The position numbers and the translations under genes are program-made. Source: Saprospiraceae bacterium (GTDB taxonomy: Bacteria > Bacteroidota > Bacteroidia > Chitinophagales > Saprospiraceae). From it: a DNA stretch of 64,000 nucleotides. Positions within the stretch are counted from its first letter, which is position 1. Every line of letters starts with the position of its first letter. The notes under the pieces are model-generated. The model saw only the letters and a program-made list of their open reading frames with translations, had not been told where the DNA came from and did no database searches. Below, one piece after another: positions 1,285-54,104 of this stretch. Location of the stretch: the NCBI GenBank assembly GCA_022841745.1, contig JALHQW010000044.1:1-64000 (forward strand). Reading direction: 5' to 3'.

Positions 1285-1854
1285 TCAGTTGTCCACGTCC
1301 TGTTCCGTTGTTTTTACCTTTTTTATGTCCTTTATTTTGCAGAACACATATTTGGCTCCTGCCAGCTCTTCAATTTTTTCTTTGATAGCAGACAGGTAAA
1401 CCCGCTGTTTTGCCTCCTCACCTGTCCCAAAGACGGCCACTATCAAATTATCATTCTTGTATTTATTGTTCATATAATCCGCCATCTGCCCTACCAATCG
1501 TTGAAGACTGGCCGATTTGAACAATGCCCTAGCAAGCTTAACTTCTATTCCAATCTTGCCCTTCCCTATATCGAAGTCAATCTTCAACCCATTGATTCCT
1601 TCGACGCCTTGCTCCCTATTTACATGCACAAAATGCTTGTTTAGGTGCTCAAAAAGCTGTTTTTGGATGGATGCCTCAGTGAAGCCTTCCAGTAGCTTGG
1701 GGTTTTGGCTGGCCACAAAATCCTCAAGAGCTTCTACCACTAGGTCCATGGTGACCGAATCGTCTTCTATCCGGCCCTCTTTGTCCCGGTTGGTTTTGAG
1801 GAAGAGGTAAAGGATTACCGCCCCTCCGATCACGTACAAAATTTCTGTATCCAT
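1285..1854 (-). CDS. Membrane-anchored PD-(D/E)XK nuclease-like protein, accessory gene
   Basis: A 189-residue protein with one N-terminal membrane segment (about residues 5-19) followed by a charged soluble domain. Residues 90-110 (LKIDFDIGKGKIGIEVKLAR) fit the PD-(D/E)XK nuclease core: Asp93/Asp95, then Glu104-x-Lys106 on the next strand, with a Gln (Q123) on the following helix. The fold call is inference from this motif. The gene lies alone, leftward, between attL and the repressor and has no counterpart in element B, as expected of a cargo gene expressed from the lysogen. A membrane-bound nuclease-like lysogen protein could act in superinfection exclusion or defence; no partner gene is visible. 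Confidence 0.6.
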   Translation of the reverse strand: MDTEILYVIGGAVILYLFLKTNRDKEGRIEDDSVTMDLVVEALEDFVASQNPKLLEGFTEASIQKQLFEHLNKHFVHVNREQGVEGINGLKIDFDIGKGKIGIEVKLARALFKSASLQRLVGQMADYMNNKYKNDNLIVAVFGTGEEAKQRVYLSAIKEKIEELAGAKYVFCKIKDIKKVKTTEQDVDN

Positions 1855-2437: not shown

Positions 2438-2707
2438 ATGGAAGCGAAAATTCAAAGCAAAGAGAGCATCCTTGACTTCGTGCGCCGGGTAAAACTGCAC
2501 CGGCTACTCCCGGTCGGCACACCGAGAAAGATTGCTCAAAACTTGGGCAAAAACGACAGCACCGTTCGCGGTGTCAGCAAGGGCCAATGGACTGACCTCG
2601 ACATACTGGAAGCCACAGCCAACGAGCTGATGCGATGCGGAGAGGTTGGCCAGTCCCTGATGGAAATGGTGGCAGAAGAAAGGCTACATGTAAAAATAGC
2701 CGCCTAA
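2438..2707 (+). CDS. Small early regulator-like protein
   Basis: 89 residues. The start at 2438 is preferred to an in-frame upstream ATG at 2372, which would overlap the operator and promoter. Residues ~20-55 (GTPRKIAQNLGKNDSTVRGV) read like a helix-turn-helix, suggesting a Cro- or CII-like regulator. It is the first rightward gene after the operator, the position of Cro in lambdoid circuits. It has no clear homology to the 125-residue protein at the same place in B. Function is inferred from position and this motif only. Confidence 0.6.
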   Translation: MEAKIQSKESILDFVRRVKLHRLLPVGTPRKIAQNLGKNDSTVRGVSKGQWTDLDILEATANELMRCGEVGQSLMEMVAEERLHVKIAA

Positions 2708-2805
2708 AAATATTAAGTATGGTTATTTGAACCGGGTGCGTAGGTAAAACAACAAATCAAATAAGCTGGGATTGCCACTTGCGCACTACAGTTTGATAAA
2801 ATAGC

Positions 2806-3254
2806 AGTGGCCACTGGAAGCGGTGGCCACTCTATAAAAGTTCATTTGGTTTTTTGGGGTTATCCCGTCCCCTGGTCGCTTGCGGCTGGGGGGCGTTCCC
2901 CCTGAAGATTAAATCAGAGAGCGTGTTTAGTAGTTAAAATGTTGGGTTGCCGGGCGATGGCTCGGCAGCTTTTAACTGGAAAACCAGAAAGCATAAACTG
3001 CCGGTGAGGCTCCTAGTGAAGCAACCGGGGCGGGGACGTGCATAGCAAGCCCCGCCCCACATCGAAGGCCAAAAAAAATTGAGTGTTCATAGTGTTTCAA
3101 TGACATTGTTTTAGCGCCCGCAGGGAGGCAAGTTGGCGGTGGGCTTTTTGAAACAACCAGGCGAGCGTTCCCGGATACGGGCAAAAAAAAAGCCGGTGCG
3201 TCAACACCAGCTCCGTAGGCGGGGCGCTCGCCCTACCATACCATAGTACCGCAA
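2806..3254 (+). ncRNA. Conserved structured non-coding block (copy A)
   Basis: A ~450-nt gap with no plausible gene, strongly conserved with 26982-27411 in B although neighbouring genes differ. Successive hairpins: AGTGGCCAC/GTGGCCACT (2806-2831); CCCC-GGTCG/CGGCT-GGGG; GGGGG/CCCCC; GCCGGGC/GCTCGGC with a 4-nt loop; CCGGT/ACCGG; GGGGCGGGG/CCCCGCCCC. An outer pairing GGCGAGCG (about 3160) with CGCTCGCC (about 3224) is replaced in B by GGGCAAGG/CCTTGCCC, a compensatory change at several positions. Other stems switch G-U to G-C or G-C to A-T. A 1-nt indel argues against coding. It ends just before the ATG at 3255. It could be a stable RNA, a long regulatory leader, or a folded DNA element (origin or packaging site). 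Confidence 0.7.
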
Positions 3255-4829
3255 ATGTATTCCAAATCAACGAATTACGCAAACAGCATGATGAGCTGGA
3301 CGGAACCAACGACTAAACTGCAACTTGCCTATTTCAGCAAACATGCGCCTGAGCGCAAGTTGTTCGGTTGGTTCTTGTGGGCGCTCTTGGGCATTTGGGC
3401 CATTGCCGACTTCTACGGCTTCCAGATGCTGTTCACCGAGCACCTGCCAGCCCTGGAGCAATTCAAGAACGTCGTCACCGTTGCCATCCTACTGGTGCTC
3501 CATTATTCCCTGTACATCACAGCCAAAACCTACTGGTTTGCTGCCCTCGATGATGGCCTTGCCGAAACAGATGAGGAAAAAGTGCAAGCGGCCAAAACCG
3601 ATGCCACGCCTTGGATACCCATCACCATCACCCTGCTGATGCTCTTCGCATCGAGGGAGGGCAGCAAGGCGCTCCTGCAAAGCATGGCACCAGTGGCCAC
3701 CATCACCGCCACCACCGGGGCTGACAACGAAAAGTCGGAAAAGCTGGAGTCTGAAAAAAGGGCACTCGACCACGACCTAGCTGCAATCGAGTCGCTGTAC
3801 GCCGACCAGATAAAGGCTGCCGAGAAACCGCACCGGGACGCCATAACCCGGCTAACCCGCAGCCGGAACAATACGCCCTGGAACGAGAAGGCCCGGCGCG
3901 CTACCCTACTAGCCGAAATAAGGAAAGAAGAAAAGCTCAGGGATGATGCCGGCACGGCCCTACTTGCCGAAAAAGGGGTAAAACAACAAAACGCCATGGG
4001 CCGCTATGAAGCGGCCGTGACGCTCATCCAAGGCTCACACACCACTGCGGTCAAATCCATCGAATCGGTCAATAAAAGGGAGTTGGTGGCCGAGGAGCAG
4101 GGCAAGGCTGTGGCCAATCGGTACTCGTGGCTCATTTCGGTGCTCCTTGCGGCGCTGTTTTGGGGCACTTGCTACCGGTGGGTGAAAATCAACCTCAAAT
4201 CGGGCATCCGACCAAACTACACGTTCACAGAATTTGACAAAAACGGCGGCAGCTGGGCACTGCTCAAATTGGCCGTACAGGATGCCTTTAAGCGTCAGTC
4301 GTTCCGTTTCAGTGTTTGGCTCCATGCCACCCTATCCCGTGGCGCCAGGGAACTTCCCAAAATGGATGGCCGCATCAATTTTGTGGACCCGGACGAAAAC
4401 GAAACCGGTGATGATTTCGATGGCTCGCCCACCCTACCCACCGGCTCGGACGAAGACAATATCCGGCAGATGTACGTCCAGCGACGCCATGAATCGCCCA
4501 AGTCAAAAGATACCGCTGTTACAAGTGATAGGGTAACAGGCACCGATGCTGTTATAACGGTGGTTTATGACAAATCCAAGGCCCGTTTGCAAAAACTGTT
4601 ACAGCTCATCCAAGCGTACCACGGCAATTGGGGCAAAGACGACGGCGGTAAGACCAGTACCATCACAGAGAAGCTTGCCAAGCATTGGGCAGAGGCCCAC
4701 GCAATCGTAGAATCAACCCCAGCGGAGGTACTAGGGGAGACACTCACCAGGTACCACAACATCCTCGACAAGGACATTGAGCTATTTTCGAAACCACGTC
4801 CAAGGGATTTGAAAAAAGCTTCAGCATAA
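3255..4829 (+). CDS. Polytopic membrane protein with central coiled coil
   Basis: 524 residues, not a family I can name. Membrane segments lie at about 35-57, 72-95, 117-135 and 290-310. Between the third and fourth is a ~140-residue charged helical region (150-290) rich in Glu, Lys and Ala that should form a coiled coil. The last ~210 residues are hydrophilic. Element B has the same architecture at 27412 with an almost identical N-terminal start (MYSKST-YA). The ATG follows the structured block directly. It opens the early operon, so it may tether replication or assembly to the membrane. The start is supported by conservation of the first residues in both elements. Confidence 0.75.
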   Translation: MYSKSTNYANSMMSWTEPTTKLQLAYFSKHAPERKLFGWFLWALLGIWAIADFYGFQMLFTEHLPALEQFKNVVTVAILLVLHYSLYITAKTYWFAALDDGLAETDEEKVQAAKTDATPWIPITITLLMLFASREGSKALLQSMAPVATITATTGADNEKSEKLESEKRALDHDLAAIESLYADQIKAAEKPHRDAITRLTRSRNNTPWNEKARRATLLAEIRKEEKLRDDAGTALLAEKGVKQQNAMGRYEAAVTLIQGSHTTAVKSIESVNKRELVAEEQGKAVANRYSWLISVLLAALFWGTCYRWVKINLKSGIRPNYTFTEFDKNGGSWALLKLAVQDAFKRQSFRFSVWLHATLSRGARELPKMDGRINFVDPDENETGDDFDGSPTLPTGSDEDNIRQMYVQRRHESPKSKDTAVTSDRVTGTDAVITVVYDKSKARLQKLLQLIQAYHGNWGKDDGGKTSTITEKLAKHWAEAHAIVESTPAEVLGETLTRYHNILDKDIELFSKPRPRDLKKASA

Positions 4830-11409: not shown

Positions 11410-11868
11410 ATGGACGCCAAAAATGTGATAATCGCCGCTGGAGTGCTGTACCTGCTGCTGCCAAAGGCAGCTTCCGCAGCCGCCAACAGGGTGGCATGGG
11501 ACTTTGATAAGGTGCGCATCCCCGGCGATATCAAACTTGCAAAGGGCGGCTTCGACCTTCGCCTGCGCATCACCAACAACCTGCCCACCGCCATCAGCTT
11601 CGAGACCTACAAGGGCGAGATAAGCCAGAACGGCAAGCTGCTCGGCACTATAGACACCAAGAAGAGCATCAGCCTCCCCAGTGGCCAGCCGGTCATCGTG
11701 GAATCGTTCGTGCGGGTGAAGGGCCTCGATCTGCTCAAGGCCCTGGCAGGGGGTTCCAGTGCGCTGCTTGAGCCGGTCATCATTGATAGTTACGTCGGCT
11801 TCGACGTGGCGGGCAATATGATCGAGCTGCCTATCAGCAACTCCATAAGCCTCTTCTATGTCCAGTGA
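11410..11868 (+). CDS. LEA14-like protein with N-terminal membrane anchor (A)
   Basis: 152 residues. A hydrophobic segment at residues 6-24 anchors it. The rest reads as a late-embryogenesis-abundant (LEA14/WHy) beta-sandwich: FDLRLRITNNLPTAISFETY with the typical N-N-x-P centre, then GKLLGTIDTKKSISLPSGQP. Such domains bind proteins or surfaces; in phages they are rarely annotated. The homologue at 37177 keeps the layout. It starts the late operon and overlaps the transglutaminase-like gene by 11 nt in both elements, so the two products probably act together in virion membrane or spike base. Confidence 0.75.
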   Translation: MDAKNVIIAAGVLYLLLPKAASAAANRVAWDFDKVRIPGDIKLAKGGFDLRLRITNNLPTAISFETYKGEISQNGKLLGTIDTKKSISLPSGQPVIVESFVRVKGLDLLKALAGGSSALLEPVIIDSYVGFDVAGNMIELPISNSISLFYVQ

Positions 11869-24280: not shown

Positions 24281-24625
24281 ATGGAAAATCTAAAAGAACT
24301 TCGGGAATTACTGCAATTCCTTTTTGGCCTCCAAGGCGCTTTGGTAGATGCCTTGGAAGATGGAAAATTTAGCCGCTTCGACCTGCTCAGGTTCTGGGCA
24401 ATTGTGCCGTTGGCAAAGCCCGCATTTCAGAATCTGGAAAACCCAATTGAGCGTTACAAAAATTTGACCCCAACCGAGAAGGCAGGGTTGATTGCCGAAA
24501 TGAAAGCGGGGTTTGATTTGCCGGATGATGAAGTAGAGGGCCTGATCGAAGACTCGCTGACGTTGGCAATGGCGAACATCGAACTCGCCCAGCGTTGGGC
24601 AAGGATCGGAAAGGAAACAGCCTAA
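24281..24625 (+). CDS. Variable cassette protein between lysozyme and integrase (A)
   Basis: 114 residues, helical and acidic (LKELRELLQFLFGLQGALVD). Start 24281 follows ATCACCATTCAAATATTTCATC, a leader shared with the unrelated gene at 52500 in B. No recognised domain. Same slot, different gene in each element, suggesting a swappable cassette. Confidence 0.6.
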   Translation: MENLKELRELLQFLFGLQGALVDALEDGKFSRFDLLRFWAIVPLAKPAFQNLENPIERYKNLTPTEKAGLIAEMKAGFDLPDDEVEGLIEDSLTLAMANIELAQRWARIGKETA

Positions 24626-24674
24626 AGAAAAGCCTTGTCTTTTACACAAAAGCGGGTGTTCCAATTTAGCTTAG

Positions 24675-24704
24675 AAGCCTTGGTAGCAATGCCAAGGCTT
24701 TTTT
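24675..24704 (+). terminator. Late operon terminator (A)
   Basis: AAGCCTTGG and CCAAGGCTT pair around TAGCAATG, followed by TTTT. It stands between the rightward late operon and the leftward integrase and can serve both. Identical in B. Confidence 0.8.
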
Positions 24705-25819
24705 CATGCCGCCAACTTCTCACCTGGTGCCGGGAAGCTCGCCCTGAGTTTCACCAAATCAGCCACGCCCAGCTGGCGAAGGTATTTGTCCACCATATCA
24801 AGGGAATGATGCCTGAGCTGTATCTGCAGTTCTTTCAAGCTCACGCCTGCCTTCACACATGCAACAGCGCCCGTATGCTTCCAACTGTACATCTTGTATT
24901 CCGAGGAAAAGCCAAGCGCATCCAGCACCGCCCTGTGGCGCTCGCCCAGGGTGTTCCTGCCGATTGGCTTGTAAATGCTCTTGGCCGAATGAAAAACATA
25001 GCTGTTTGGGGGCAGCTCCTTCAGGTGCTCGAGCGCGGGGGCGAACGCATCCGGGATGGCCACGAATTCAGTCTTATGGTTCTTGCTGCCTGGTGGCAAG
25101 TGGCCACGGTCGCCATGCTCTGCAAAATCGGACCGGACCATGATTTTCCGCTCCTCGAAATAGATGTCCTCGACCTTAAGGTGGATAAGCTCTGCCCTGG
25201 GCCGCAAAAAGCAGTAGTACACGAATTGACAGTGAAGCCACAGCTGCGGGTCGTTTTTTTCGAGGTGGGCAGCGAGCCGGGCAGCCTGGTGCGATTGAAA
25301 GTACCTGGCAGGGTCAGACTTTCCCTTTTTAGGCTCAAAGCCATCGAGCCAGCCCTTCATGCCGCAGCGTTCGAATAAAAAATTCAGCGAACGCCTGGCT
25401 TCGTGCACGGTAGCCGGTCGGTGGGTACGCTGGTAGTCCCTCAGGAACTCCTTTGCCGACTCCGGGGTCACTTCCCTCGCGCCAAGGTACTGGAACAACA
25501 GCTTCAGCTTTGTCTCAAAGCATGAAAAGGAATGCTTTCGAAGCTCAGGGCGGCGAGCCTCGAGGGCGGCGAACAATTCTTGTCGCTGGAGGAAGTTGGC
25601 TGGAGGAGGGACGAATGCAGCTTCGAGTTTAGCGAGCAGTGCGTTTCCTGCCACTACCCTACCCTCGATGGTATCGTGTTGGTTGATACCAGTGTAGTAT
25701 TTTTTCCACTTGCCAGTAGAAGGATCCTTAAAATGAACGAACCATTCCTTGGTAAGGTCTAGACCCTGGTCCCGGAGGACAAAAAATTTTTTTTCTGATT
25801 GTGTACCCATTGAAATCAA
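24704..25819 (-). CDS. Tyrosine integrase (A)
   Basis: 371 residues with the tyrosine recombinase layout: N-terminal arm-binding part, SAM-like core-binding domain (about 95-160), catalytic domain from ~175. Catalytic residues visible: Arg in FLRPRAEL (206/208), His315 in YSWKHTGAV, His337 in LRHHSL, and the nucleophile Tyr346 in DMVDKYLRQL. It directs integration at the tRNA-Leu 3' end, 78 bp from the att core. The protein is identical to the copy in B, unlike all other shared genes. Confidence 0.92.
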   Translation of the reverse strand: MISMGTQSEKKFFVLRDQGLDLTKEWFVHFKDPSTGKWKKYYTGINQHDTIEGRVVAGNALLAKLEAAFVPPPANFLQRQELFAALEARRPELRKHSFSCFETKLKLLFQYLGAREVTPESAKEFLRDYQRTHRPATVHEARRSLNFLFERCGMKGWLDGFEPKKGKSDPARYFQSHQAARLAAHLEKNDPQLWLHCQFVYYCFLRPRAELIHLKVEDIYFEERKIMVRSDFAEHGDRGHLPPGSKNHKTEFVAIPDAFAPALEHLKELPPNSYVFHSAKSIYKPIGRNTLGERHRAVLDALGFSSEYKMYSWKHTGAVACVKAGVSLKELQIQLRHHSLDMVDKYLRQLGVADLVKLRASFPAPGEKLAA

Positions 25820-25896
25820 TCATGGACAATCAGTGTGAGGGAAAATTTGTCTATCGCCTTTAAAACTCCTAGTAAAATAAGGAGTTAAAGAAAAAA

Positions 25897-25912
25897 TGTA
25901 CCCGCGACTGGA
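25897..25912. other. Shared att core between elements A and B
   Basis: TGTACCCGCGACTGGA. It is the right end of A and the left end of B, as expected when a second element integrates at an att site beside the first. Only the core is present here; the rest of the tRNA is not, so this is not a tRNA gene. Confidence 0.9.
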
Positions 25913-26445: not shown

Positions 26446-26823
26446 ATGGAAGAAGTTTCACCACTTTTGTCGAAAAGTTACTCAACTTATTTAAAAAAGA
26501 GGAAAATGAATTTTGAAGAATATCTGAAAAAGAACCTTACAGGGGAGCAATGGGAGTCTTTGTCTTCTGTGCTTTGGGAAAGTACGAATATGCGTACAAG
26601 GAAAGTAAAAAATCCCGCAAGTATTGCCCATAGCGAGCTTTTGGAGTTGGCTTCAATGCTAAATGTATTTGCATACACCCTTTACTTGAATTGGGGCGCT
26701 GGCAGGGAAACAATTACTAAAATAGAATTAGATAACCTAGAGTACATCTTTCTTCAAAAGTCTCCAGACAAGGAAAAGGCTTTCGAGTATTCAGAAAAGA
26801 AAAGGGCGGCAATGGCCGCCTAA
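26446..26823 (+). CDS. Small early regulator-like protein (B)
   Basis: 125 residues from 26446, or 105 from ATG 26506 if transcription starts near 26447. Helical, charged; the stretch NPASIAHSELLELASMLNVF resembles the second half of an HTH domain. First rightward gene after the repressor, the Cro/CII position. Not similar to the A gene in that slot except for size. Confidence 0.6.
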   Translation: MEEVSPLLSKSYSTYLKKRKMNFEEYLKKNLTGEQWESLSSVLWESTNMRTRKVKNPASIAHSELLELASMLNVFAYTLYLNWGAGRETITKIELDNLEYIFLQKSPDKEKAFEYSEKKRAAMAA

Positions 26824-26947: not shown

Positions 26948-26981
26948 TAAAAGCATCTTCATCCATTTTTTGAAAAATGGC

Positions 26982-27411
26982 AGTGGCCATCGGAAGCGGT
27001 GGCCACTTTATAAAAAATTGGTTTTTCAGGTTTATATAGTCCCCTGGTCGCTTGCGGCCGGGGAGCTTTCCCCTGAAAGGATAATCAGAGTGTTCTGTTA
27101 GCATGTGGAGTTGCCGGGCGAAGGCTCGGCAGCTTTTCTACCTCAAAAACCAGAAAACATAAACTGCCGGTGAGGCCTTAGTGAAGCGACCGGGGCGGGG
27201 ACGTGCATAGCAAGCCCCGCCCCAAATCGAGGCCAAAGAGAACAGAGTAGTTTTTGTTTCAATGACATTGTTAGCGCCCGCAGGGAGGATTTTGGCGGGG
27301 CTGTTTGAAATCAAACCGGGCAAGGATTCCACGAACGGGAACAAAAAAAGGCGATGCTGTAAACATCGCCTCTCATTCAAGGAGCCTTGCCCCCTAAATA
27401 TCGCACTGCAA
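26982..27411 (+). ncRNA. Conserved structured non-coding block (copy B)
   Basis: Counterpart of 2806-3254 with the same order of stems. Differences fall mainly in loops or as paired changes: GGTCG/CGGCC (one G-U to G-C change), GGGGA/TCCCC (G-C to A-T), outer stem GGGCAAGG/CCTTGCCC (about 27317 and 27385) in place of GGCGAGCG/CGCTCGCC, and an inner AGGCGATG/CATCGCCT hairpin replacing a GGTG/CACC one. GTTTCAATGACATTGTT and AGCGCCCGCAGGGAGG are conserved single-stranded candidates. It ends directly before the ATG at 27412. Confidence 0.7.
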
Positions 27412-28302
27412 ATGTATTCAAAATCAACAGCTTACGCAAGTGAGCGCCCATCGAATATAATGGACGAACTTCGCCAAGGGCTTACCAGTATCAAAACTGG
27501 CTACAAGGCCAACTTGCTCAAATATGCCTACCAGCGCAACCCAGATTCCCTTCTCGATGAAACACTATTGTTTATTTGGGCACTTATGGCCATTGCTTGC
27601 GCCTTTACCGTGGCATACGGTGGTTACTACCACTACTCCATGCTCCAATCTGCCTTTGGCGTAGGCATTTGGAGCGTGGTAGGCTCCTTTGTGGTGTTCA
27701 TCGCCTTGGAGATTGCCAAAATTTACCTTGGCCTTGTGTTCACCCGGTCACTTTTCTCCATGCTATGGTACAAGAGTATTTACCGTTTCCTATTTACGGC
27801 ACTGCTTGGCTTCATCGTGGTAGTGGCGTTCACCTGGTCTATCAACATCAGCACGAAGGGCGTGGCTAGCGTAAACGCCTTGGCAAAGCAAACCGACCTC
27901 TACCAGTCCAAGCCCTTCACCCCTCCCCCATCGGTAGCGGAAATTGACAGGCAAATAGCTGGCCTTGGCACAGTTGATCAGGCAGCGGCGGGCAGCACAT
28001 GGCGGGGGGTCACTACAGAAAGGGCCGTGAAGCTGATGCGGGAAAACGGTAAGACCCGCTCCGAGCTGCTTGCCCAAAAATCGGCATTGCTGGCCACGGC
28101 TCAGGCACAACATGACAGCCTTCAAACGGTGCTGAAAACAGAAATAACCAATACCGCTACCCTACTCACCGACTACGGGGGCAAAGCCGAATATGCCACC
28201 ATTGTGCTATTGTTGCTCATCGTCCTTTTCGAGTTCATCAACTACCACAACAACAAAGCCCAAGCAGCCGAAGCAGCCGCCTTGCCCCTAAAAAAAGCAT
28301 AG
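27412..28302 (+). CDS. Polytopic membrane protein, zero-frame product (B)
   Basis: 296 residues from ATG 27412; the start is fixed by MYSKSTAYA matching MYSKSTNYA of A. Three membrane segments at about 45-65, 75-95 and 115-135, a helical region with Ala/Gln/Lys (SVAEIDRQIAGLG to HDSLQTVLKTEITN), then a fourth segment (ATIVLLLLIVLFEFINY). Zero-frame translation stops 10 residues after that in PLKKA. The A homologue continues for over 200 residues. A slippery A7 run and a 13-bp stem at the stop suggest that part of the ribosomes shift -1 and add the domain at 28296. Confidence 0.75.
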   Translation: MYSKSTAYASERPSNIMDELRQGLTSIKTGYKANLLKYAYQRNPDSLLDETLLFIWALMAIACAFTVAYGGYYHYSMLQSAFGVGIWSVVGSFVVFIALEIAKIYLGLVFTRSLFSMLWYKSIYRFLFTALLGFIVVVAFTWSINISTKGVASVNALAKQTDLYQSKPFTPPPSVAEIDRQIAGLGTVDQAAAGSTWRGVTTERAVKLMRENGKTRSELLAQKSALLATAQAQHDSLQTVLKTEITNTATLLTDYGGKAEYATIVLLLLIVLFEFINYHNNKAQAAEAAALPLKKA

Positions 28303-28978: not shown

Positions 28979-29031
28979 ACTAAGCATACATCGTGGGAGA
29001 ACTTCACACCTCCAGGCAAGCGCCTGGGAGG
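28979..29031 (+). promoter_or_regulatory. Conserved 28-nt block plus hairpin (copy B)
   Basis: ACTAAGCATACATCGTGGGA then GAACTTCA, followed by CCTCCAGGC/GCCTGGGAGG with an AAGC loop, then AAAACCAATTTT and the ATG of the methyltransferase. In A the first 28 nt match at 26 positions while the stem sequence is different but paired. The position directly before the coding start here suggests a leader RNA element controlling translation. Confidence 0.6.
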
Positions 29032-29043
29032 AAAACCAATTTT

Positions 29044-29862
29044 ATGACCCATATATCATTATTCAATGGAATCAGCACCACATTATATGCCGCCGAGCTT
29101 GCCCAATGGCAAAACATCGCAGCAAGCGAAATTGACCCATGGTGCAATAAGCACATGGCCAGGTGGTTCCCCCACGTCGAGCAGCTTGGCGACATTACGA
29201 CTGCCGATTTTACCCGGTTTAGAGGCGTGGCTGACGTACTCTCCGGGGGCTTTCCTTGCCAAAATATCAGCTGCTTGGGAAAAGGGGAGGGCATCAAAGG
29301 GGCAAAAAGTAGTCTTTGGAAGCATTATTGGCGAGCAATTGCGGAGATTTTACCTGGATATGCGGTTATTGAAAATTCGGGACGGCTTAATTCAGCCGGG
29401 CTTGAATCCATCTTATACGACCTTGCCGAAATCGGGTATGATGGTGAGTGGTGTACTATTTCGGCTGCCCAATATGGGGCCGAACATGTCCGTGAAAGAG
29501 CGTACATACTTGCCTACCCCAACTCACAGAGACGGCGCAACCTATTACATCTTATCCAAGCAGAACGCAGCGAAATGTTTGCACCGGTACAAAAAAAAGA
29601 AGGGGCCGACACTACCGCAAGAAGCTATCCTTTTGAGCGAGTACGAGAAAGCTATGGTGAATCCTGTCTTTTACGAGATTATCATGGGCTTACCAAAAAA
29701 CTGGACCCGGTTAACCGAATTGGAGGACTCGGAAACGCCATGTACTGGCCCATCCCATACGCCATCTTCCGATGGATAGATTTTGCGGAAAAATGCACTG
29801 AGGCGGAATGGTTGCAGGTCAACTATGATGCTTTGATGAGTCTTGAAACTGATAATTCATAA
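29044..29862 (+). CDS. DNA (cytosine-5) methyltransferase
   Basis: 272 residues. C5-methyltransferase motifs in order: I, SLFNGISTTLYAAE (SAM binding, FxGxG variant); IV, GGFPCQNIS with catalytic Cys72; VI, ENS at 110-112 (usual ENV); VIII, QYGAEHVRERAYILA with Arg150 and Arg152; and X, GGLGNAMYWPIPYAI near the end. The target-recognition region is short. No restriction partner is visible, so it is a solitary enzyme, probably protecting element DNA or modifying the host. Start 29044 is used because the upstream GTG at 28993 lies in the conserved motif. Confidence 0.92.
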   Translation: MTHISLFNGISTTLYAAELAQWQNIAASEIDPWCNKHMARWFPHVEQLGDITTADFTRFRGVADVLSGGFPCQNISCLGKGEGIKGAKSSLWKHYWRAIAEILPGYAVIENSGRLNSAGLESILYDLAEIGYDGEWCTISAAQYGAEHVRERAYILAYPNSQRRRNLLHLIQAERSEMFAPVQKKEGADTTARSYPFERVRESYGESCLLRDYHGLTKKLDPVNRIGGLGNAMYWPIPYAIFRWIDFAEKCTEAEWLQVNYDALMSLETDNS

Positions 29863-52499: not shown

Positions 52500-52817
52500 A
52501 TGTGGAAAACATTCGCCAAAATGGCTTTTGAGTACGTCGAGGATTTTTTGCTAAAGAAAATTTCCTCCGTGCAGTATTTTCGTGACACCCTAGAGTTCTT
52601 TGTTTTCTTGGGTGGCCAAGCCGTTGACGTTACAACCGACAACGACCCCAATAACAAAGCCCAGCTTCAACAGATTTGGGAAAAGAACTTTGTGAACTTG
52701 TTATCTATTGTACTCCGTGGCGTGTACGATGTGGTGAAAAATCCGCAGGTGAAAGAGCGGGTAATCGCCATTTTGAGGAAAACGCTCAACGATATAGAGG
52801 CTAATCCGGTAGCCTAA
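52500..52817 (+). CDS. Variable cassette protein between lysozyme and integrase (B)
   Basis: 105 residues, helical and amphipathic (EYVEDFLLKKISSVQYFRDT, LLSIVLRGVYDVVKNPQVKE). Unrelated to the gene in the same slot of A although the leader ATCACCATTCAAATATCTCATC is shared. Ends where the near-identical integrase segment begins. Confidence 0.6.
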   Translation: MWKTFAKMAFEYVEDFLLKKISSVQYFRDTLEFFVFLGGQAVDVTTDNDPNNKAQLQQIWEKNFVNLLSIVLRGVYDVVKNPQVKERVIAILRKTLNDIEANPVA

Positions 52818-52866
52818 AGAAAAGCCTTGTCTTTTACACAAAAGCGGGTGTTCTAATTTAGCTTAG

Positions 52867-52896
52867 AAGCCTTGGTAGCAATGCCAAGGCTTTTTT
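52867..52896 (+). terminator. Late operon terminator (B)
   Basis: Same AAGCCTTGG/CCAAGGCTT stem and T run as at 24675, within the segment that is nearly identical in both elements. Confidence 0.8.
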
Positions 52897-54011
52897 CATG
52901 CCGCCAACTTCTCACCTGGTGCCGGGAAGCTCGCCCTGAGTTTCACCAAATCAGCCACGCCCAGCTGGCGAAGGTATTTGTCCACCATATCAAGGGAATG
53001 ATGCCTGAGCTGTATCTGCAGTTCTTTCAAGCTCACGCCTGCCTTCACACATGCAACAGCGCCCGTATGCTTCCAACTGTACATCTTGTATTCCGAGGAA
53101 AAGCCAAGCGCATCCAGCACCGCCCTGTGGCGCTCGCCCAGGGTGTTCCTGCCGATTGGCTTGTAAATGCTCTTGGCCGAATGAAAAACATAGCTGTTTG
53201 GGGGCAGCTCCTTCAGGTGCTCGAGCGCGGGGGCGAACGCATCCGGGATGGCCACGAATTCAGTCTTATGGTTCTTGCTGCCTGGTGGCAAGTGGCCACG
53301 GTCGCCATGCTCTGCAAAATCGGACCGGACCATGATTTTCCGCTCCTCGAAATAGATGTCCTCGACCTTAAGGTGGATAAGCTCTGCCCTGGGCCGCAAA
53401 AAGCAGTAGTACACGAATTGACAGTGAAGCCACAGCTGCGGGTCGTTTTTTTCGAGGTGGGCAGCGAGCCGGGCAGCCTGGTGCGATTGAAAGTACCTGG
53501 CAGGGTCAGACTTTCCCTTTTTAGGCTCAAAGCCATCGAGCCAGCCCTTCATGCCGCAGCGTTCGAATAAAAAATTCAGCGAACGCCTGGCTTCGTGCAC
53601 GGTAGCCGGTCGGTGGGTACGCTGGTAGTCCCTCAGGAACTCCTTTGCCGACTCCGGGGTCACTTCCCTCGCGCCAAGGTACTGGAACAACAGCTTCAGC
53701 TTTGTCTCAAAGCATGAAAAGGAATGCTTTCGAAGCTCAGGGCGGCGAGCCTCGAGGGCGGCGAACAATTCTTGTCGCTGGAGGAAGTTGGCTGGAGGAG
53801 GGACGAATGCAGCTTCGAGTTTAGCGAGCAGTGCGTTTCCTGCCACTACCCTACCCTCGATGGTATCGTGTTGGTTGATACCAGTGTAGTATTTTTTCCA
53901 CTTGCCAGTAGAAGGATCCTTAAAATGAACGAACCATTCCTTGGTAAGGTCTAGACCCTGGTCCCGGAGGACAAAAAATTTTTTTTCTGATTGTGTACCC
54001 ATTGAAATCAA
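52896..54011 (-). CDS. Tyrosine integrase (B)
   Basis: 371 residues, identical to the A integrase, with the same catalytic residues (Arg206/208, His315, His337, Tyr346). It ends 78 bp from the att core that lies in the tRNA 3' end. Identity of protein, flanks and arm sites means either integrase can act on any of the three att sites. Confidence 0.92.
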   Translation of the reverse strand: MISMGTQSEKKFFVLRDQGLDLTKEWFVHFKDPSTGKWKKYYTGINQHDTIEGRVVAGNALLAKLEAAFVPPPANFLQRQELFAALEARRPELRKHSFSCFETKLKLLFQYLGAREVTPESAKEFLRDYQRTHRPATVHEARRSLNFLFERCGMKGWLDGFEPKKGKSDPARYFQSHQAARLAAHLEKNDPQLWLHCQFVYYCFLRPRAELIHLKVEDIYFEERKIMVRSDFAEHGDRGHLPPGSKNHKTEFVAIPDAFAPALEHLKELPPNSYVFHSAKSIYKPIGRNTLGERHRAVLDALGFSSEYKMYSWKHTGAVACVKAGVSLKELQIQLRHHSLDMVDKYLRQLGVADLVKLRASFPAPGEKLAA

Positions 54012-54088
54012 TCATGGACAATCAGTGTGAGGGAAAATTTGTCTATCGCCTTTAAAACTCCTAGTAAAATAAGGAGTTAAAGAAAAAA

Positions 54089-54104
54089 TGTACCCGCGAC
54101 TGGA
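54089..54104. other. attR of element B, inside the tRNA-Leu 3' end
   Basis: TGTACCCGCGACTGGA, complement of the tRNA acceptor 3' strand and part of the T arm. The element rebuilds the tRNA end, so the gene stays intact. To the left, TTTGTCTATCGCC and an ACTCCT/AGGAGT hairpin are identical to those before the middle att site. Confidence 0.9.

Follow-up and report, generated by a model that had tools for sequence, protein, structure and literature searches.

A conserved early-region module in two tandem proviral elements of a Saprospiraceae bacterium: a predicted structured leader with a candidate antisense small RNA gene

A non-coding block of about 430 nt is conserved between two integrated elements that lie in tandem, A (at about 1.1-25.9 kb) and B (at about 25.9-54.1 kb), in the 64,000-nt stretch of Saprospiraceae DNA analysed here (hereafter the window). 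We favour the reading that this block is the structured leader of an early transcript together with an embedded antisense small RNA (sRNA) gene that would control the early gene downstream. Its best-supported part is the predicted sRNA gene, which belongs to a familiar type of regulator but occurs in a new setting; its predicted form is found in seven elements, and its anatomy, strand and recurrence are supported by sequence evidence. The block had been described in an initial annotation as one new structured RNA. Folding agrees that it is structured, but what was taken for a single RNA resolves into two predicted RNA features on opposite strands, of which the antisense sRNA gene is the part that recurs.

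RESULTS

Two tandem elements share a conserved non-coding module

A blastn alignment joined A 2792-3282 to B 26969-27439 with 78.6% identity over 499 columns, and 339 of the 434 ungapped aligned columns are identical. In both elements the block sits between the cro-position gene and an early gene, and begins about 85 nt after the former in A and about 147 nt after it in B (Table 1). The interval originally delimited, 2806-3254, is indeed conserved and non-coding, but its right edge was set too early: conservation continues to 3283/27440, with 84% identity across 3252-3283, whereas past these positions identity falls to 22% over the next 60 nt ungapped, i.e. to chance level. That is, the conserved module extends beyond the downstream start codon and ends at the -33 box of a predicted antisense promoter. 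The earlier exclusion of a shared reading frame held up, as six-frame translations show no frame open in A and B alike, which rules out a protein-coding block.

Table 1. Features of the conserved module and of the adjoining genes in elements A and B (window coordinates)
Feature	Coordinates	Strand	Remarks
A cro-position gene	2438..2707	+	89-aa ORF; opens the rightward early transcript; without family match
B cro-position gene	26446..26823	+	125 aa; no Pfam and no PHROG match
A whole conserved module (leader, predicted antisense sRNA gene and its promoter)	2795..3283		limits from blastn and the drop in identity
B whole conserved module	26971..27440		limits from blastn and the drop in identity
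A predicted structured leader	2795..3182	+	H1 2806-2831, H2 about 2867-2894, H3 2944-2972, H4 3027-3058, H5 about 3113-3145
B predicted structured leader	26971..27340	+	H1 26982-27007, H2 about 27039-27066, H3 27108-27135, H4 27192-27223, H5 about 27272-27303
A 8-bp outer stem H6	3160..3232	+	arms 3160-3167 GGCGAGCG and 3225-3232 CGCTCGCC
B 8-bp outer stem H6	27318..27392	+	arms 27318-27325 GGGCAAGG and 27385-27392 CCTTGCCC
A predicted antisense sRNA	3183..3246	-	about 64 nt, putative start placed from the promoter; SL1 3241-3215, SL2/terminator 3214-3189, then a T run
B predicted antisense sRNA	27341..27403	-	about 63 nt; SL1 27399-27375, SL2/terminator 27374-27346
A predicted antisense promoter	3252..3283	-	TTTG-N20-TACATTTG; covers start codon 3255
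B predicted antisense promoter	27409..27440	-	CTTG-N20-TACATTTG; covers start codon 27412; one mismatch in the -33 box
A first gene after leader	3255..4829	+	524 aa; by inspection a membrane protein, having hydrophobic stretches
B first gene after leader	27412..28302	+	296 aa; membrane protein by inspection

Element B, the right one, ends at a tRNA-Leu. A tyrosine integrase is present in A, and the B copy of the integrase region is 99.9% identical over 1282 nt (A 24619-25900, B 52811-54092), the two elements being about 66-80% identical elsewhere where alignable; such near-identical integrase ends suggest that A and B recently exchanged sequence or underwent gene conversion. The replication-type genes differ, with DUF3987 in A versus a DnaG-type primase in B. 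A weak match to a DpnII/MboI-type nuclease, below the Pfam cut-off, lies at the left end of A (1285-1854, minus strand), and a C5 cytosine methylase is encoded in the early region of B (28993-29862, plus strand). The A gene is taken to occupy the cro position because of a divergent HTH-like gene at 1902-2318; it has no PHROG match at E<=0.001 and a single, chance-level match (E 0.09). The first gene after the A leader matches neither Pfam nor PHROG. Its counterpart in B is a relative of a gene in a third element (L058:7819-9174), and the B start codon at 27412 was picked by similarity to A, the mechanical ORF starting at 27262.

This third, more distant element of the group is carried by the same genome on contig C91 (G000:C91; L058, L059). 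The group as a whole (window 1100-54200; L018-L025, L046-L060) has an integrase, an endolysin (PHROG 315) and a common, conserved protein of ~240 aa, called capsid candidate from its position only, and is possibly an undescribed virus family. None of ten predicted virion-region proteins of A matched a PHROG at E<=0.001, and the predicted structure of the capsid candidate is of low confidence (mean pLDDT 46.5). A profile of the capsid candidate detected related elements in 4 of 396 genomes of the order and, built with five rows, in 16 of 398 genomes of the family, the source genome being included in both counts. The early operon of relatives of Lewinella sp. W8 and Neolewinella agarilytica holds, between small early genes, two or three tRNA-like modules (L018:7490-7660, plus; L021:11876-12400, minus; L023:9582-9813, minus), made of an acceptor stem and a T arm with GGTTCGATTCC, the normal D and anticodon arms being missing; ARAGORN made no call at these three loci and their Rfam matches stayed under the gathering score.

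Folding and substitution patterns of the block

Folding energies of the block are far below those of dinucleotide shuffles (60 each), with z-scores of -7.9 (plus) and -4.1 (minus) in A and -6.4 on either strand in B. Within the left part, A 2800-3120 folds at -140.2 on the plus strand (z -6.2) versus -108.0 on the minus strand (z -2.9), and B 26976-27280 at -125.0 (z -5.5) versus -108.3 (z -4.7). The leader folds better on the plus strand in all three cases compared (A, B and the C91 element), and H1, H2 and H3 taken singly behave likewise. Folding, rather than covariation, thus supports a predicted plus-strand structured leader in the left ~320 nt, detected in A and B only.

The 8-bp outer stem (H6) reported earlier stands, with 8 of 8 pairs kept between A and B and 4 of 8 changed on both sides. 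The accompanying claim of at least four stems with paired substitutions was too strong: two-sided changes are seen in this stem and in SL2, but not in H1-H4. That is, H1 differs by C-G/U.G exchanges only, H3 by one G.U/A-U exchange at most, H4 is invariant, and H2 is short of one pair in B. SL2, the terminator hairpin, is a minus-strand structure; in pair lists matched by eye, two of its eight pairs are changed on both sides and one on one side, and none is broken. When whole minimum-energy folds were compared with permuted substitutions, neither pair retention (p 0.09-0.45) nor, over the same four fold/strand combinations, the count of pairs changed on both sides (p 0.26-0.75) was significant, so that two sequences are not enough to sustain a claim of broad covariation. 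RNAalifold, which picks its own pairs, gave 5 such pairs on the plus strand and 6 on the minus strand.

H3 was scored as a plus-strand terminator in B and not in A, where four T only come after it; as a guess, the leader may therefore also set readthrough into the early operon. An antiterminator pairing of the H3 3′ arm with the following sequence was rejected, being in the wrong order for attenuation. A minus-strand terminator score was given to H1 in A (2801, -18.9), not in B. One could accordingly imagine that the block acts mainly in cis, as an attenuator or put-like antitermination element controlling plus-strand transcription, and that the antisense unit is secondary. The plus-strand preference of the leader and its location after the first early gene agree with this, as do the H3 score in B and a plus-strand terminator found after the cro-position gene in another element, G184. 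We nevertheless hold it possible rather than probable, given the lack of a terminator score for H3 in A, the non-significant covariation of the leader and the lack of any homologue of the leader beyond A and B in the sequences searched.

A predicted antisense sRNA gene at the right end of the module

The Bacteroidota promoter consensus consists of a -7 box TAnnTTTG and a -33 box TTTG (PMC7366714). A perfect TTTG-N18-22-TAnnTTTG motif occurs once in the 64 kb of the window, both strands included, namely at the antisense site of A (3283-3252); the 8.43-Mb source genome contains 321 perfect motifs, an enrichment over the 177 of the reversed pattern, yet this amounts to no more than about one perfect motif per 52 kb of strand. 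In A and B alike, an intrinsic terminator lies about 60 nt past the predicted antisense promoter. When promoters were scored more loosely, the window held 11 promoter-terminator pairs, among them those of A and B, which means that such a pair alone is not rare. Moreover, A-rich sequence often precedes Bacteroidota start codons and could mimic a -7 box. Another TAnnTTTG box with a terminator-like hairpin was noticed at 11404-11307 on the minus strand, just ahead of the A gene at 11410 and outside the seven units described below.

Searches for relatives of the block

The initial annotation recognised no known RNA class in the block, and Rfam comparisons at relaxed thresholds likewise gave no credible match for either copy; at the gathering score the tRNA was the sole match in the window, and L058, L018, L056 and L069 had none. 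Phage records yielded nothing by blastn with the block or tblastn with two proteins, plasmid records no block homologue by blastn, IMG/VR nothing with two DNA patterns and five protein queries, and 100 related genomes no block homologue by DNA. Among the contigs of our own genome set, one protein alignment retrieved nothing and another only three loci already known.

Nor did a covariance model of the core (R1), the kind of search suggested in the initial annotation, deliver further homologues: across 298 genomes of the family it found no credible homologue besides the source genome, and weak matches in four genomes. R1 included a mis-placed 5-pair helix, with 3 of 5 pairs non-standard in A and in B. 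The weak matches L008 and L009 were rejected as lying inside ORFs, L007 as lying between two ordinary genes, and L010:1663-1583 (minus strand, genome G277; 34 bits) as two adjacent hairpins lacking the conserved linker, as judged by alignment only. R1 found no credible block in sets of 8, 15 and 3 stretches from related elements, and further weak matches fell in L023, L053 and L050.

The predicted antisense unit recurs in related elements

The antisense unit, dissimilar in sequence, was seen again in five related elements (C91, C11, C26, G167 and G251). The C91 element, which neither blastn nor R1 matched to the block of A and B, has a structured 285-nt gap between its cro-position gene and the gene related to that of B, with a perfect TTTG-N22-TACTTTTG over the start codon at the homologous place and a minus-strand terminator at 7738-7711. 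In C11, C26 and G167 a TAACTTTG box sits at the start codon, which is preceded at about 92-95 nt by a terminator, and G251 has a box and a terminator ahead of an HTH gene. Against an sRNA speaks the -33 box: it is imperfect in B and in C11 (CTTG, which passes the -33 scan), not recognised in C26 and G167, which do not pass, and nowhere perfect in G251. The strict unit was missing from G174 (a minus-strand terminator and no clear box), G184, G254, G561, G155, G160, G122 and G294, where some early regions may be incomplete.

As a control, we considered 415 mechanical gene starts (ORFs of >=60 aa) in 14 sequences, with the box sought from -10 to +12 and the terminator <=150 nt upstream. An antisense -7 box was present at 6 of them, an antisense terminator at 16 and both at 6, i.e. 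all six boxes came with a terminator (hypergeometric probability 1.2e-9, or 1.5e-6 counting the six as four lineages). B is absent from the six, since the start of its mechanical ORF is at 27262. The association weakens when the window around the start codon is widened: boxes at antisense start codons then numbered 11 of 232, and a terminator accompanied 6 of these 11 versus 20 of the 232 overall.

Each of the seven predicted RNAs (those of A, B, C91, C11, C26, G167 and G251) folds into a pair of hairpins, of which the second is the terminator, and fold z-scores in the six tested were -3.6 (A), -6.1 (B), -5.8 (C91), -4.2 (C11), -4.0 (G167) and -4.2 (G251). The sRNA region is better folded on the minus strand in 8 of 8 elements, G174 included. 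Since SL2 was selected via its minus-strand fold, SL1, which was not used in the selection, provides the fairer strand test; it is better on the minus strand in 6 of 7, that is, in all but C26. Between C11 and G167, 9 of 14 SL1 pairs taken in order differ on both sides, a count in which the register may be off. The minus-strand preference of the sRNA and SL1, set against the plus-strand preference of the leader, points to a probable overlap of two oppositely oriented RNAs at this place.

In an alignment of the downstream membrane proteins (A10), the C11/G167 group had no real similarity to the B group, so what is claimed for these elements is a common position and not homology. As the downstream genes are not all related (C11/G167 versus B, and an HTH protein in G251), a common target function is doubtful.

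It might be argued that the minus-strand terminator does no more than protect the early region against stray antisense transcripts, that the -7 box simply results from the A-rich surroundings of the start codon, and that there is no regulatory sRNA. The promoter-like boxes are short, looser pairs exist elsewhere in the window, and antisense transcription can be noise, as stated in PMC7366714. We consider this improbable in view of the coincidence of strict boxes and terminators (6 of 6 among the 415 starts), the second hairpin, SL1, in 7 of 7 predicted RNAs, and the end of the A/B module at the -33 box.

DISCUSSION

A model for control of the early region

From the anatomy described above we infer transcription of the sRNA gene, its start point, its pairing mechanism, the sign of its effect and its benefit. 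A minus-strand promoter over the start codon of the first post-leader gene would produce an RNA of ~60 nt, which would fold as two hairpins and end at the intrinsic terminator within the block. This RNA would be able to base-pair with the final ~60 nt of the leader, its complementarity stopping about 9 nt short of the start codon. Because the 5′ arm of the leader 8-bp stem is present in its sequence, it could replace that arm, and pairing with the leader would thus most likely open the stem. Translation or stability of the early message would then be lowered, a block of translation start or a destabilisation being the simplest effects, and the early region might be kept quiet in the manner of lambda OOP RNA.

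A more ambitious version would see a two-RNA switch, in which a new leader RNA of ~320 nt, perhaps an antitermination element, and a fast-evolving antisense sRNA, conserved in shape and position but not in sequence, together decide on expression of the early operon, and thereby of the lytic programme, in an undescribed family of Bacteroidota integrating viruses. Taken as one joint claim, we regard this as speculative and rather unlikely.

The initial annotation had also allowed for folded DNA, which here would be a replication origin or a transfer or packaging site. Dense inverted repeats in non-coding DNA would fit such a site, but one strand folds better via G.U pairs, an asymmetry that is meaningless for duplex DNA and argues for RNA over an origin or packaging signal; the differing replication-type genes of A and B and the position within the early transcript also speak against it, and we judge it quite improbable. 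Least convincing is a longer antisense RNA of ~445 nt reading past SL2 to H1, so that the whole block would be one minus-strand unit: the module does span the antisense promoter to H1, H1 has its minus-strand terminator score in A, and B folds equally well on both strands, but SL2 makes a good terminator in both copies, H1 lacks such a score in B, and H1, H2 and H3 are better on the plus strand, which makes this very improbable.

If the predicted sRNA genes are transcribed, they would constitute a point of control by antisense RNA that recurs in the early region across a provirus group whose proteins are mostly without match in the phage libraries used. They would be recognisable by their anatomy, i.e. 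an antisense -7 box over a start codon with a terminator upstream, where sequence similarity fails, and would offer a testable candidate for lysogeny control in Bacteroidota.

Comparison with known systems

A literature search, thin on subscription papers, brought up no description of an RNA of this kind from Saprospiraceae, Lewinella or other Bacteroidota proviruses. With downstream proteins of 278-524 aa, too large for a small hydrophobic toxin, the units do not correspond to type I toxin-antitoxin loci. The put RNA of phage HK022 is structured and lies between cro and the remainder of the early operon. The lambda nutR/tR1 region has the same position (for tR1, see PMC5869508). The likeness of the A/B leader to both is one of position only.

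Hairpin RNAs counter-transcribed from plasmids, such as ColE1 RNAI and pIP501 RNAIII, are complementary to a structured leader and act on replication primers or on rep mRNA. By analogy, the predicted sRNA resembles them as a hairpin antisense RNA facing a structured leader.

The nearest known kinds are the DonS-type antisense RNAs of Bacteroides and lambda OOP RNA, neither of which is claimed as a homologue. DonS-type RNAs, as described in PMC7366714, are 78-128 nt long and divergently encoded against the gene that they repress. The predicted sRNAs, likened to them by description, agree in phylum (Bacteroidota), size and arrangement. DonS, however, acts on susC homologues of polysaccharide loci, whereas here a two-hairpin RNA of 60-105 nt would face proviral early genes, and Pfam revealed no SusC/TonB match in the downstream proteins.

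OOP (pO-oop-tO), as described in PMC5869508, is a short antisense RNA of a temperate-virus early region with its own promoter and a hairpin terminator, and overlaps the 3′ end of cII by 52 bases. The units described here differ in promoter type, no sequence relation to OOP being claimed or found, and the A/B RNA would face a non-coding leader before the next gene rather than the 3′ end of a cII-like regulator. They are like OOP in having a predicted promoter directed against the early transcript (its motif perfect in A and C91, with one -33 mismatch in B) and an intrinsic terminator that would close a short RNA.
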